DNA from: Bacteriovoracaceae bacterium
Lineage (GTDB): Bacteria; Bdellovibrionota; Bacteriovoracia; Bacteriovoracales; Bacteriovoracaceae
Direction of reading: 5' to 3'
DNA: 64,000 nucleotides
Assembly: GCA_003245675.1 (NCBI GenBank)
Contig: QKCN01000008.1
Span: 1-64,000, forward strand
In this document: positions 47,016 to 51,765 of the stretch, piece by piece
Layout: each line of letters starts with the position of its first letter
Position numbering within the stretch: the stretch's first letter is position 1
Translations under genes and position numbers: made by a program
The notes under the pieces: generated by a model
What the model was told of the DNA's origin: nothing
What the model saw: only the letters and a program-made list of their open reading frames with translations
Database searches by the model: none

Positions 47016-47198
47016 ATGAAAGCTTTAGTTTTGATTTTGACCATGAGTTTTTCAATTGCAACTTTTGCCGAAGATAGCTATGGAGAAAAATCCACAGAAT
47101 GTAAGTACTCAGCACATAATTTATCCGTAAATTATAAAGATTTCTCTGATGCTCCAAGCGCTTCTGAGAATGAATCAAATTCATTTTCAGTTAAATAG
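47016..47198 (+). CDS. 60-aa secreted peptide A
   Basis: AGGGAGG precedes the ATG. A Sec signal peptide (MKALVLILTMSFSIATFA) is followed by a mature chain of about 42 residues with one Cys (STECKYS), a YKDFSDAP segment and a Ser/Asn/Glu-rich end. It is 92-93% identical to the second copy. I recognise no family. The sigma-54 promoter suggests expression under a specific activator. The ORF extends upstream to 46959, but that part covers the promoter and is not coding. Confidence 0.82.
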   Translation: MKALVLILTMSFSIATFAEDSYGEKSTECKYSAHNLSVNYKDFSDAPSASENESNSFSVK

Positions 47199-47222: not shown

Positions 47223-47252
47223 GGAGGGACACTGTAATGTCCCTCCGCTTTT
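47223..47252 (+). terminator. Terminator after peptide A
   Basis: GGAGGGACA / TGTCCCTCC with loop CTGTAA, then GCTTTT. Confidence 0.8.
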
Positions 47253-47436: not shown

Positions 47437-47619
47437 ATGAAAGCTTTAGTTTTGATTTTGGCCATGAGTTTTTCAATTGCAGCTTTTGCTGATGACAGCT
47501 ATGGAGAAAAATCCACAGAATGTAAATATTCAGCACATAATCTGTCAGTAAATTATAAAGATTTTTCTGATGCGCCAAGCTCTTCTGAGAATGAATCGAA
47601 TTCATTTTCCGTAAAATAG
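47437..47619 (+). CDS. 60-aa secreted peptide B
   Basis: Paralog of peptide A with the same length, signal peptide type and one Cys (STECKYS). Only a few residues differ (T/A and E/D near the signal cut, A/S at SAPS/APSS). SD is AGGGAGG, at the same spacing as in copy A. Function unknown; a short exported product in two copies suggests dosage or heteromeric use. Confidence 0.82.
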   Translation: MKALVLILAMSFSIAAFADDSYGEKSTECKYSAHNLSVNYKDFSDAPSSSENESNSFSVK

Positions 47620-47714: not shown

Positions 47715-47744
47715 TTGACCTTAAGGTTCTACGAAGCATATAGT
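47715..47744 (+). promoter_or_regulatory. Sigma-70 promoter of the hydrogenase operon
   Basis: TTGACC, 18-base spacer, TATAGT, about 84 bp upstream of the first start codon. Confidence 0.55.
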
Positions 47745-47776
47745 CAAACTATCTATCTATTCAATTTTACAAGGGA

Positions 47777-47803
47777 AAACAGTCTTTCGGACTTGGACTG
47801 TTT
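47777..47803 (+). promoter_or_regulatory. Hairpin in the hydrogenase leader
   Basis: Perfect 8-bp stem AAACAGTC / GACTGTTT with loop TTTCGGACTTG, 25 bp before the start codon. Possible operator or mRNA structure; no T-tract, so not a terminator. Confidence 0.5.
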
Positions 47804-47827
47804 GGAAACTAAAGTGGGGACTTTATT

Positions 47828-49894
47828 ATGGCAAAAGTAGTGTATGGCTATTGGAACAAGGAATTGTATGACAATCGGGGCAAACATTTATTTGAAATTG
47901 CTCCTCTTGAAAACTTTAAAGAATTTGACGAGTTTGATCCTGGAAATCCTCTGAGGGCCTATATTGGGCATAAGGGATTTTTTGTTTTTGAACACGGCAT
48001 TAGTATTTTGGATTCTTTTCGTCATTATTTGAGTAAAGCAGCTGATGAATCTTGCGGAAAGTGCACGCCTTGTCGTGTGGGTACTCAAATTTTAAAGCGA
48101 AAATTCGATACTCTTGTTGATGGAGAGGGGGGCATTGAAGAACTTGTTGAGATTGAAAAACTTTGTGATCACATGAAGAGAACTTCTCTATGTGGCCTTG
48201 GTCAATCTGCTCCAGTGGCCCTGCTCTATGCTCTAAAGCATTTTAGAGATGAGTTTGAAAAAGAAATTGGCAATAAGGCAGGAATTAAAAAACGTCCAGT
48301 CTATGCTTATGCAACAACTCCATGTATTGAAGCTTGTCCTGCGAAAGTAGAGGTGCCAAAGTACATTGACTATATCAAAGATGGAAAATTTGCTCACTCT
48401 GTTGGGGTGGTCCTTAAAAAATATCCATGGGCCGCGACTTGTGGCCGTGTTTGTGTTCGTTTCTGTGAGCTTGCTTGCAAGAGAACAAATGTTGATGAGG
48501 CTGTTGGTATTAAAGTGCTTAAGCGCTTTGTTGCCGATAGAGAGAGATATGTCACTGATCATTGGTTTTCTAAAGATCTTATAAAGAATCCTAAGCACAA
48601 AGATTTGAAAGTTGCCGTTATTGGAACTGGCCCTGCTGGCATTTCGGCAGCATATCATTTGCTATTGAACGGTTATCATGTTGATGTGCTAGAGGCACTA
48701 CCTGAAGGCGGGGGAATGGCAAAGGTTGGTATTCCAAACTATCGTCTTCCTTCTGAAATTTTGGATAAAGAAATCAGTATTATTGAAGAGCTTGGTGGGC
48801 GAATTCGTTATAACCAGCGTCTTGGAAAAGATTTCAATTTAAAACAATTGCTCAATGAATACGGTTACAAGGCTGTTTTTCTTGGGATTGGTGCTCATAA
48901 AGGAAAAATTATAGGGATTCCTGGAGAGCCTCAAGAGATACCGACACCTATTTTGTTAGAGCAAGGCAAAAGACCAGAATACAAATATGCTGCTCACAAA
49001 ACTCGCGAAGCAAAGAAAGAGGTTTTTGGTTATAAGCAGGGGATTAATTTTCTATTAGATGTAAATAATTTTGTAATTAATCAGGGGCAGCCTCTACAGC
49101 TCGGTGAAAAACTCGTGGTGATTGGTGGAGGTAACGTTGCTATGGATTGTGTGCGTTCGGCCCTTCGTATGGGGGTCAAAGATGTACATCTTGTTTACCG
49201 CCGCACCAAAGCCGAAATGCCTGCAGATCACGAAGAGGTAGAAGCTGCAGAAAAAGAAGGCGTTATTTTCCATGAATTGACTCATCCCACTCAGCTAAAA
49301 GTTGAAAATGGAAAAGTTGTTGGCTTAGAACTTACCAAAATGGAATTGACTGAGCCACAGGATGGAAGAAGGCGAGGAGTTCGCGCAGTGCCAAATTCTG
49401 AATTTTGCATTGAATGTGATTACGTTGTTCCTGCCGTTGGCCAAGCAGTTGATGTTGATTCTCTTGCTGAAGAAACAGTTGCTCTTAATAAATGGGGTCT
49501 AATTGATGTGCAAGAAGAAACGATGATGACCAATATGGACGGCATTTTTGCAGGTGGTGATTGTGTGACTGGACCAGCTACTTTAATTGAGGCAATGGCC
49601 CAAGGTGAGAAAGCTGCTCGCTGTATGGATGATTATTTGCAGCACGGGCGGGTTCTATTTTCTCCAGAAGATCGTATGAGCAAAATTATCGATGGATTAA
49701 CGAAGAAAGATGATGAGCAGTTGTATGTTCCTGTAAAAGCACGACGTCGTACGCGTGTTGCAGAACTGGATCCAGAGTATCGTAAGCGAAAATTTGATGA
49801 GGTTGAAAAATCAATTTCTGTCGAAGAGGCTTATGGCGAAGCGGATCGTTGTTTGCGCTGTTATCGTATTTCCCTTGTCGTTACTGATCGATAA
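47828..49894 (+). CDS. GltD-type NAD(P)H flavoprotein with NuoF-like [4Fe-4S] domain, hydrogenase partner
   Basis: A 688-aa protein. Residues about 55-150 resemble the C-terminal NuoF iron-sulfur domain, with C76-GKC79-TPC82 and C122, but the NuoF FMN/NADH fold is missing. Next comes a GltD-like module: two cysteine clusters (CIEACPAKVEVP; CGRVCVRFCELAC), an FAD loop GTGPAGISAAYHL (about 264-276), and a second nucleotide loop GGGNVAMDCVRSALRMG. This is the layout of the small subunit of glutamate synthase. With hydA 21 bp downstream it probably passes electrons between NAD(P)H and the hydrogenase. ACTAAAGTGGGGA precedes the ATG. Confidence 0.85.
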   Translation: MAKVVYGYWNKELYDNRGKHLFEIAPLENFKEFDEFDPGNPLRAYIGHKGFFVFEHGISILDSFRHYLSKAADESCGKCTPCRVGTQILKRKFDTLVDGEGGIEELVEIEKLCDHMKRTSLCGLGQSAPVALLYALKHFRDEFEKEIGNKAGIKKRPVYAYATTPCIEACPAKVEVPKYIDYIKDGKFAHSVGVVLKKYPWAATCGRVCVRFCELACKRTNVDEAVGIKVLKRFVADRERYVTDHWFSKDLIKNPKHKDLKVAVIGTGPAGISAAYHLLLNGYHVDVLEALPEGGGMAKVGIPNYRLPSEILDKEISIIEELGGRIRYNQRLGKDFNLKQLLNEYGYKAVFLGIGAHKGKIIGIPGEPQEIPTPILLEQGKRPEYKYAAHKTREAKKEVFGYKQGINFLLDVNNFVINQGQPLQLGEKLVVIGGGNVAMDCVRSALRMGVKDVHLVYRRTKAEMPADHEEVEAAEKEGVIFHELTHPTQLKVENGKVVGLELTKMELTEPQDGRRRGVRAVPNSEFCIECDYVVPAVGQAVDVDSLAEETVALNKWGLIDVQEETMMTNMDGIFAGGDCVTGPATLIEAMAQGEKAARCMDDYLQHGRVLFSPEDRMSKIIDGLTKKDDEQLYVPVKARRRTRVAELDPEYRKRKFDEVEKSISVEEAYGEADRCLRCYRISLVVTDR

Positions 49895-49915
49895 TTTAGA
49901 GATTTGGAGATAATT

Positions 49916-51715
49916 ATGAAAGCCTTTATGAATGGTAAAGAAGTTGATTTTAAAGAAGGCGAGTCGATTTTAGAGGTGGCTCGTCGTAATAGTTTTCGTA
50001 TTCCTACTTTATGTGAAATGACTGAGATGGACCATACTCCTGCAACATGTCGTGTGTGCTTGGTTCAGATTCAGCGTCAGGGAGAAGAGCGGCCTTTTCT
50101 AGTTACTTCTTGTAATACGCCGATGGAAGCGGGGCTTGAAATTCAAACGCGCAATCAGTGGGTTCGAGAGTCACAGCGCTTGCAGGTTGAGTTATTGCTT
50201 GCTGATCATGATATGAATTGTATGACTTGCATTAGACATGGGGATTGTGAATTACAAGATGTCGCAAAATTTGTTGGACTAGAGGAAAATCGTTTTAATG
50301 ATCCGGAGCTTTTTTGCGAGCGTGAGGTCGATACCTCTTCTCCTTCGATTGTGCGCGATATGAAAAAGTGTATTCGCTGCTTACGATGTGTGAAAATTTG
50401 TCGAGAAGTTCAAGGAACAGATGCCCTTGTTATCAGTCAAGGAGGAACCGCTGCTCAGATTTCACCCAAGAATGCCTTAGAGTTGAGTGAATCAACTTGT
50501 GTTAGCTGTGGACAGTGTACACAGGTATGTCCTGTTGGTGCCCTTTCAATGAAAAACGATATTGAGAGAGTTGTTGATTTTTTAAATGATCCCGACATTA
50601 CTACTGTTTTTGAATATGCACCGGCGATTCGTGTTGCTCTTGGGGAAGAGTTTGGGCTGCCGCCGGGCAGTATTGTTACAGGCCATATGAATGCAGGTTT
50701 AAAGGCATTAGGTGCAGATGCCTATCTTGATACTAATTTTACAGCAGATCTTGTTATCATGGAGGAAGGAACAGAGTTATTACATCGCGTGCAAAATAAT
50801 GGTGTGCTTCCTCTATTTACTTCTTGCTCTCCTGGCTGGGTAAATTTTATTGAAAAGAATTATCCCGAATTTTTGCCTCACGTTTCAACCGCGAAATCGC
50901 CTCAACAGTGTTTTGGGGCTTTGGCAAAAACATATCTTGCTGATCATATGAAAGTGAAGCCTGAGAACATGAGAGTTATTTCCATCATGCCTTGTACCGC
51001 CAAAAAGGAAGAAGCAACTCGTCCTGAGTTTATCCGAAATGGTCAACCTGATGTCGATGTTGTGCTGACGACTCGTGAATTTGCAGATCTTTTAAAAAGA
51101 GAAGAGATTTACATTAATGAGCTTGAGCCCTGCGGCGTTTCTCATGAGTTAATGGGGGATCATACTGGTGCAGGTGTGATTTTTGGAACAACCGGAGGAG
51201 TGACAGAAGCAGCTGTTCGAACATTACACTATATTCTTAATGGAAAAGAACTTGAGGGGATTGATGTAAAAGAGGTTCGAGGGAAAAGTAATATCAAAGC
51301 TGCTGATGTTGAATTATCTCCGGAGCTGGGCAAGGTCAAAATTGCCGTTGTGCACGGTCTAAAAGCAGCTCGCCAAATATTGGAAGATATGAAGGAGGGA
51401 AGTTGCCCCTATACTTTTATTGAATTTATGGCCTGCCCTGGTGGATGTATTAATGGAGGAGGGCAACCTAGAACCAAGAAAAAGTATCAAAAAAATTGGG
51501 ATAAGCGTATTGAGGCAATCTATGAAGATGATCGCCAGTCAGCATTGCGCCAATCTCATAATAATCCTCAAATTCAGAAGATTTATAAGGATTTTTTAGG
51601 AGAACCTCTTTCCCATAAATCACATGAATTGCTGCATACCACTTATCGCAATCGTAAAAAAGAATACAGGCAGTCCATTGAAAAAATTTGGGCAGACATT
51701 AATGGAGATGATTGA
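49916..51715 (+). CDS. hydA: [FeFe]-hydrogenase catalytic subunit (GltD-linked type)
   Basis: A 599-aa enzyme. It has an N-terminal [2Fe-2S] domain (C33, C45, C48, C66), a His-Cys3 [4Fe-4S] motif (DHDMNCMTCIRHGDC), and two [4Fe-4S] motifs (CIRCLRCVKIC, CVSCGQCTQVC). The H-cluster domain follows: P1 T302-S-C304-S305-P-G-W, P2 M358-P-C360-TAKKEE, P3 M505-A-C507-PGGC511-INGGGQP. All cluster cysteines are kept. The P1 second cysteine, which relays protons in many enzymes, is serine, as I recall in some NAD(P)H-linked members. The ATG at 49916 is preferred (GGAG upstream). No maturation genes hydEFG are in the window. Confidence 0.92.
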   Translation: MKAFMNGKEVDFKEGESILEVARRNSFRIPTLCEMTEMDHTPATCRVCLVQIQRQGEERPFLVTSCNTPMEAGLEIQTRNQWVRESQRLQVELLLADHDMNCMTCIRHGDCELQDVAKFVGLEENRFNDPELFCEREVDTSSPSIVRDMKKCIRCLRCVKICREVQGTDALVISQGGTAAQISPKNALELSESTCVSCGQCTQVCPVGALSMKNDIERVVDFLNDPDITTVFEYAPAIRVALGEEFGLPPGSIVTGHMNAGLKALGADAYLDTNFTADLVIMEEGTELLHRVQNNGVLPLFTSCSPGWVNFIEKNYPEFLPHVSTAKSPQQCFGALAKTYLADHMKVKPENMRVISIMPCTAKKEEATRPEFIRNGQPDVDVVLTTREFADLLKREEIYINELEPCGVSHELMGDHTGAGVIFGTTGGVTEAAVRTLHYILNGKELEGIDVKEVRGKSNIKAADVELSPELGKVKIAVVHGLKAARQILEDMKEGSCPYTFIEFMACPGGCINGGGQPRTKKKYQKNWDKRIEAIYEDDRQSALRQSHNNPQIQKIYKDFLGEPLSHKSHELLHTTYRNRKKEYRQSIEKIWADINGDD

Positions 51716-51736
51716 GAAAACGTTCTTAATAAATAG

Positions 51737-51765
51737 AGGGGGAACCATTATGGTTTCCCCTTTTT
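51737..51765 (+). terminator. Terminator of the hydrogenase operon
   Basis: GGGGGAACCA / TGGTTTCCCC ten-bp stem (one G-T), loop TTA, TTTTT tail. Confidence 0.88.

Follow-up and report, generated by a model that had tools for sequence, protein, structure and literature searches.

We analysed a window of 64,000 nucleotides (positions 1 to 64,000 of contig QKCN01000008.1, assembly GCA_003245675.1) from a member of the Bacteriovoracaceae, phylum Bdellovibrionota. On its plus strand, at window positions 47828-51715, lies a two-gene unit in which a gene for a flavoprotein (beta) is followed, after an intergenic gap of 21 bases, by a gene for the catalytic subunit of an [FeFe]-hydrogenase (HydA). 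It is likely that the two proteins form a soluble, non-bifurcating hydrogenase dependent on nicotinamide adenine dinucleotide phosphate, NADP(H). The genes and their functional parts are the following (FAD, flavin adenine dinucleotide).

47828..49894, + strand: beta subunit, predicted SfrB/FdhB-type NADP(H) and Fe-S flavoprotein of 688 aa (domains; orthologues in the same order at loci L050-L053)
48017..48262, + strand: NuoF C-terminal [4Fe-4S] domain, beta residues 64-145, ligands C76, C79, C82 and C122 (PF10589, 90.5 bits; ligands invariant among 61 homologues)
48314..48547, + strand: Fer4_20 domain, beta residues 163-240, with C166, C170, C205, C209, C213 and C217 (PF14691; conservation)
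48608..49606, + strand: GltD-type FAD/NADP(H) domain, beta residues 261-593, with GGGNVA and YRR motifs (PF07992; PDB chain matches)
49742..49864, + strand: GltD N-terminal element relocated to the C-terminus, beta residues 639-679, EADRCLRC, with C675 and C678 (aligns to 4ylf_B residues 3-42)
49916..51715, + strand: HydA, group A [FeFe]-hydrogenase catalytic subunit of 599 aa (domain and subfamily profiles; PDB match)
49916..50554, + strand: NuoG-like N-terminus of HydA, residues 1-213, with [2Fe-2S], His-Cys3 [4Fe-4S] and two [4Fe-4S] clusters (PF13510, PF10588, PF22117; ligands invariant in 48 HydAs)
50819..50833, + strand: H-cluster loop 1, TSCSP, ligand C304, the adjoining residue being Ser in place of the proton-relay Cys
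50987..51013, + strand: H-cluster loop 2, MPCTAKKEE, ligand C360
51428..51463, + strand: H-cluster loop 3, MACPGGCINGGG, ligands C507 and C511

The two subunits and their gene unit

HydA carried the NuoG-like Fe-S domains followed by the H domain (PF02906, 294 bits; PF02256, 89 bits), and exceeded the curated cut-off of TIGR02512 (497 vs 406 bits). The H-cluster ligands C304, C360, C507 and C511, and every other Fe-S ligand of the protein, were invariant across 48 aligned HydAs. By its domains, its subfamily score and these four cysteines HydA belongs to group A. The best match in the PDB was 7q4v_A, HydA1 of the Acetobacterium woodii enzyme (543 bits). The NCBIfam model for NADH-dependent enzymes, FeFe_hydrog_A6, gave 745.7 bits, below its cut-off of 765, and the members of the HydA clade described below scored 699-749, while a HydA linked to a NuoF-GltD fusion scored 906.

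Beta joined the domains NADH_4Fe-4S (PF10589), Fer4_20 (PF14691) and Pyr_redox_2 (PF07992), and the flavin mononucleotide (FMN) domain of NuoF (Complex1_51K, PF01512) was not found in the Pfam search. The original prediction had described a 599-aa enzyme with every H-cluster cysteine, operonic with a flavoprotein that combines the NuoF [4Fe-4S] domain and GltD and has no NuoF FMN fold; the open reading frames (ORFs), the Pfam domains and the HydA alignment agree with this description. With its NuoF [4Fe-4S], Fer4_20 and FAD/NADP(H) domains and all their Fe-S ligands, beta shows the layout of the SfrB/FdhB type, which is about 650 aa long, and the gene directly 3' of it encodes a partner with NuoG-like N-terminal Fe-S domains. 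From its sequence, beta is assigned to this type, which serves NADP-dependent formate dehydrogenases as their NADPH module; its tie to SfrB, SfrB2 and Pcar_2503 is through domain layout, partnership with FdhA and the papers cited below, by way of relatives in Desulfobacterota.

The closest PDB chains of beta were of the StnC, NfnA and NfnL types (E 1e-72 to 1e-97). The FMN-loop pattern of NuoF was present in all 19 NuoF-GltD fusions and in none of the 42 homologues of the short form to which beta belongs. Conversely, Cys441 and Cys579 of beta were found in 42/42 and 41/42 short betas, respectively, vs 0/19 fusions. The Fe-S ligands were invariant in 61 aligned betas except for C205 and for one row gapped at C675/C678; every short beta linked to HydA has C205, whereas most of those linked to FdhA lack it.

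Both ORFs were intact, with ordinary codon usage and a GC content of 0.415/0.417 vs 0.393 for the window. An alternative start of HydA, a TTG codon 12 bases upstream, would give a protein of 603 aa. The unit ends at a terminator, beyond which the gene 3' of HydA encodes pyridoxal kinase.

51735..51763, + strand: intrinsic terminator with a 13-pair stem and T tail (-21.8 kcal/mol, z -4.4)
47715..47744, + strand: promoter-like site TTGACC-18-TATAGT (10/12 matches)

Such promoter-like sites were no more numerous in the region than expected by chance, and 47715-47744 is a weak candidate. Further upstream there were two near-identical small ORFs (47017-47198 and 47437-47619) of about 60 aa with a signal-peptide-like start; the sequences upstream of them match each other, and terminator-like hairpins lie by them at 47223 and 47654. 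They encode a putative duplicated small secreted peptide.

Relatives and history of the pair

HydA was detected in 11/369 genomes of the phylum (E 1e-60), and the short beta in the host genome only. Two members of the same family (G024 and G104) have NuoE, a NuoF-GltD fusion of 1071/1060 aa and HydA; in G024 (locus L031, 447-2720) an ORF of 757 aa precedes the fusion and ends in the NuoE domain, which comes after about 560 N-terminal residues. The closest pairs were in metagenome-assembled genomes (MAGs) of Desulfobacterium and Desulfobacula (L050-L053), in identical gene order, with 51-57% identity in both subunits and a HydA of exactly 599 aa. They were found by scanning 84,980 species with six 8-residue patterns, a search which picks up close relatives only; the phyla surveyed for the pair were Desulfobacterota and the window's own. 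At L052 the pair is followed downstream by hydG-hydE-hydF. In a Desulfobacula MAG (L053, 7977-9979) beta is split into two overlapping frames of 461 and 383 aa, which is a frameshift or an assembly error. Another Desulfobacterota genome (G725) has two pairs of short beta and HydA. No plasmid-borne relatives were found at E 1e-80.

Proteins joining the NuoF [4Fe-4S] domain to GltD occurred in 193/395 Desulfobacterota genomes. Among the subset of loci that was opened, the short form mostly adjoins FdhA, and the long NuoF-GltD form with NuoE adjoins HydA in all but one. Seven apparently short partners of SfrB-type betas (L089, L090, L091, L094, L104, L107 and L116) are FdhA genes with an in-frame TGA at HCARL-U-H. 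Judged by this motif they encode formate dehydrogenases that are selenoproteins, and annotation easily truncates such ORFs.

Phylogenetic analysis of both subunits, proposed in the original prediction as a test of transfer, gave HydA and beta trees of matching topology. All seven HydAs paired with a short beta fell into one clade (support 100/99), apart from the HydAs linked to NuoF and to NuoF-GltD. The HydA-linked short betas also formed one clade (99 in the Shimodaira-Hasegawa-like approximate likelihood ratio test), adjoining the betas linked to selenoprotein FdhA, with support of 93, which is not strong. The window sequences grouped weakly with Desulfobacula and Desulfobacterium in both trees (82/49 for HydA, 82 for beta), with G725 outside.

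Vertical inheritance together with the other HydAs of the phylum was rejected under the sampled sequences by the approximately unbiased (AU) test (p-AU 2e-56). Because the HydAs with a short beta form their own clade, horizontal acquisition of the pair is probable; we infer the direction of transfer from sparse sampling. Composition gave no sign of a recent transfer, since GC content and codon usage were host-like.

Descent from a truncated NuoF-GltD fusion like those of G024 and G104 was also rejected. The AU test excluded a clade of the window HydA with those of G024 and G104 (p-AU 3.6e-5) and a single clade of the betas of short-beta/HydA and NuoF-GltD/HydA pairs (p-AU 2.8e-5), and the Cys441/Cys579 signature sides with the SfrB-type betas. 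The comparison of sequences suggests, as the simplest history, that a HydA took over a formate dehydrogenase-type NADPH subunit via the NuoG-like interface common to both partners, and that a move of the pair between phyla came afterwards.

Residue 108 of HydA (50237-50239) is a His, in a CxRHGxC motif beside the His-ligated cluster, in 7/7 HydAs with a short beta and in 0/41 others. It is a possible marker of this clade.

Host genome and proposed function

The host assembly comprises 2.59 Mb in 124 contigs, with an estimated completeness of 87.9% and contamination of 0.48%. Its genes are consistent with a place in Bdellovibrionota. As stated originally, no gene for NuoE, NuoF or HydEFG is in the window; hydE, hydF, nuoE and nuoF are elsewhere in the genome. 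Genome-wide absence of hydEFG, named in the original prediction as an argument against an active H-cluster, was not what we observed, because HydF (contig C23, 486 vs 325.6 bits) and HydE (contig C87, 345 vs 254.6 bits) were over their curated cut-offs. On C87 (3013-10473), genes close to hydE encode an amidohydrolase and a protein resembling selenate reductase, of the YgfK type (910 bits, above the cut-off), a neighbourhood which suggests purine or selenium-related anaerobic metabolism.

We identified a second, canonical HydABC on contig C76, with NuoE of 183 aa, NuoF of 630 aa and HydA of 662 aa. This NuoF has PF01512 and two extra clusters, and this HydA has a C-terminal thioredoxin-like [2Fe-2S] domain. 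After HydABC on C76 (9395-12294) there is a HydA-like protein of 567 aa with a divergent H domain and an Fe-S domain, adjoining a SpoIIE-type phosphatase; similar HydS-like genes come after HydA in several genomes of the phylum, and it may be a H2-sensing regulator.

Subunit I of heme-copper oxidase was not detected in the host genome, while each of four same-family genomes without HydA has 2 or 3. The search for NuoF domains in the host recovered nothing beyond beta, the NuoF of C76 and a YgfK-like protein, and no NuoF of complex I was seen. Because of these absences, and of the presence of cytochrome bd and the second HydABC, the gene content makes the host look like a fermenting organism, at most microaerobic, and not an aerobe. 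Pyruvate:ferredoxin oxidoreductase of the TIGR02176 type, present in five same-family genomes with HydA, was not found in the host genome. The hydrogenase recorded in Bdellovibrionota is the NiFe-type hoxFUYH (PMC13200544), and among the papers searched none was devoted to FeFe enzymes in this phylum. The gene pair had been called unexpected for a lineage of presumed aerobic predators: its rarity holds (1/369 genomes), but the premise of an aerobic life is not supported by this genome.

The flavin-dependent exchange between NAD(P)H and H2 proposed originally gains support from the sequence of the GltD-type partner, which replaces the FMN module of NuoF. The FAD of beta's GltD-type domain would accept a hydride from NADPH, and single electrons would then cross the GltD module's two [4Fe-4S] clusters to the NuoF-type [4Fe-4S] cluster, and from there through the NuoG-like [2Fe-2S]/[4Fe-4S] chain of HydA to the H-cluster, where protons would be reduced to H2. 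The reverse direction, from H2 to NADPH, would be equally possible, and no branch for FMN, NADH or ferredoxin is expected. We infer this order by analogy with HydABC, whose NuoF-type cluster is connected with the NuoG-like chain (PMC9304861), and with StnC, whose GltD FAD is the site of NADPH oxidation (PMC10482914). Cellular NADPH is near -380 mV and H2 is at -414 mV under standard conditions (PMC9304861), so that NADPH-driven H2 release would require low H2 but no ferredoxin. Most likely the pair would vent NADPH electrons as H2 at low H2, while the separate HydABC would serve NADH and ferredoxin. Cofactor specificity, direction, complex formation and activity of the pair are predictions.

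Some results weigh against this proposal, and mainly the lack of a detected hydG and the Ser at the relay position keep our confidence from being higher. In the 87.9%-complete assembly the sole match to HydG was HydE itself. The relay Cys, which is not a ligand, is replaced by Ser in the window HydA, whereas the other 6/6 clade members read TSCCP. NADPH rather than NADH is taken as the likely cofactor from sequence motif and kinship; in Stn, the GxGxxA motif is taken to mark NADP(H) specificity (PMC7483475). The missing hydG and the Ser, unique within its clade, would also fit a protein without an H-cluster that reduces another substrate with NADPH or is decaying, but we consider this unlikely. 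HydE and hydF are retained, both host HydAs have intact ligands, and the genes show no sign of decay in reading frame, composition or codon usage. HydG was over the cut-off in 4/4 same-family genomes with HydA that were tested, so a gap in the assembly is the simpler reading of its absence. The Ser alone does not imply an inactive enzyme, because HydA1 of A. woodii has the same residue (TSCSPGW); the relay Cys, which CpI has in its TSCCP, is common in group A but not required, and TSCSP occurs in 17/18 NuoF-linked and 18/18 NuoF-GltD-linked HydAs. If the host truly had no hydG beside hydE, hydF and two HydAs, there would be a HydG-free maturation of the H-cluster or an NADPH chemistry other than H2 turnover, which seems very improbable to us.

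It is also quite improbable that the enzyme still bifurcates, by borrowing NuoE and NuoF (HydC and HydB) from C76 or by bifurcation at the FAD of beta as in NfnB, with H2 coupled to NADPH and another carrier. The host does have nuoE and a full nuoF, and many related HydAs use NuoE and NuoF-GltD; the C76 genes, however, adjoin their own HydA, beta has no FMN, NuoE or ferredoxin-type C-terminal clusters, and the HydA clade stands apart from either class of NuoF-linked HydAs. Beta also keeps the Arg of NfnL (R201 of GIPxxRLP) as GIPNYRLP, but the same Arg is in StnC (GIPQYRL), which is reported as non-bifurcating (PMC10482914); it does not discriminate, and we discarded Arg201 of NfnB as a marker of bifurcation. 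Contamination from Desulfobacterota is hardly credible as a source of the contig or the gene pair. The nearest relatives do belong to that phylum and the pair is in a single genome of the host's own, but it is surrounded, within a 70-kb contig, by housekeeping, flagellar and Tad genes of the chromosome, its composition is ordinary for the window, its identity to the relatives is only 51-57%, and the estimated contamination of the assembly is low. The non-bifurcating NADP(H)-dependent hydrogenase thus remains our preferred reading.

Comparison with known systems

HydDB class A2 is "glutamate synthase-linked (putative)", with an undetermined role, and is assigned from the gene immediately downstream (PMC5037454). 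The window pair resembles it in that a GltD-type protein lacking the FMN domain of NuoF adjoins a group A catalytic subunit, but the GltD-type gene is upstream of HydA. The A2 rule, a GltA/GltD-type gene immediately downstream and no NuoF, does not describe this locus; because the downstream gene encodes pyridoxal kinase, the window HydA would default to class A1. It means that the neighbour rule for subtyping these hydrogenases depends on gene order. The GltD-associated [FeFe]-hydrogenases, described in the original prediction as a separate, poorly studied group, are indeed poorly studied, but they mix at least two architectures, the short beta and NuoE plus full NuoF-GltD, whose HydAs are separate in the tree.

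The electron-bifurcating HydABC of A. woodii (A3/FeFe-Bfu) also has a NuoF-type [4Fe-4S] cluster feeding HydA, and it includes the closest HydA in the PDB. The window pair differs from the group A3/Bfu core, since beta has no PF01512 and no nuoE adjoins the pair, and it also has no FMN/NADH domain and no ferredoxin-binding clusters. The NuoE, NuoF-GltD and HydA operons of Desulfobacterota, G024 and G104 similarly have a GltD domain joined to the NuoF [4Fe-4S] domain and HydA downstream, but they keep NuoE and the entire FMN module, and their HydA and beta clades are separate. In the Stn/Nfn-Bfu transhydrogenases of Sporomusa and Thermococcus a GltD-type FAD/NADP(H) domain likewise leads into a NuoG-like Fe-S chain with no bifurcation at FAD, but the core is a bifurcating NuoEF and there is no H-cluster. 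The beta subunit of the Moorella NADP-dependent formate dehydrogenase is named SfrB2 (PMC13040438); SfrB2 with SfrA2/FdhF3 of Moorella thermoacetica and SfrAB of Geobacter differ from the window pair in their alpha subunit, which is not an H-cluster hydrogenase but a molybdo/tungsto-enzyme or SfrA.

What would be annotated as a GltD-linked hydrogenase of undetermined role can now be tested as an NADPH:H2 enzyme of two subunits whose HydA belongs to a distinct clade, and the results suggest a takeover by HydA of the NADPH module that formate dehydrogenases use. In a phylum known for aerobic predators, the host is a further genome, with two [FeFe]-hydrogenases, cytochrome bd and no detected heme-copper oxidase. 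To our knowledge no enzyme of exactly this HydA-beta pairing has been purified so far.

A fused SfrB-HydA protein was reported in Desulfitobacterium hafniense (PMC9888536). In Pelobacter carbinolicus, HndD1 (Pcar_2502) with the SfrB-like Pcar_2503 was proposed to produce H2 from NADPH (PMC3543383). By its published description this is likewise an [FeFe]-hydrogenase beside a single SfrB-like subunit, with no NuoE or NuoF, though in another phylum and genomic setting and itself a prediction. It is the nearest published case, a proposal of the same pairing.

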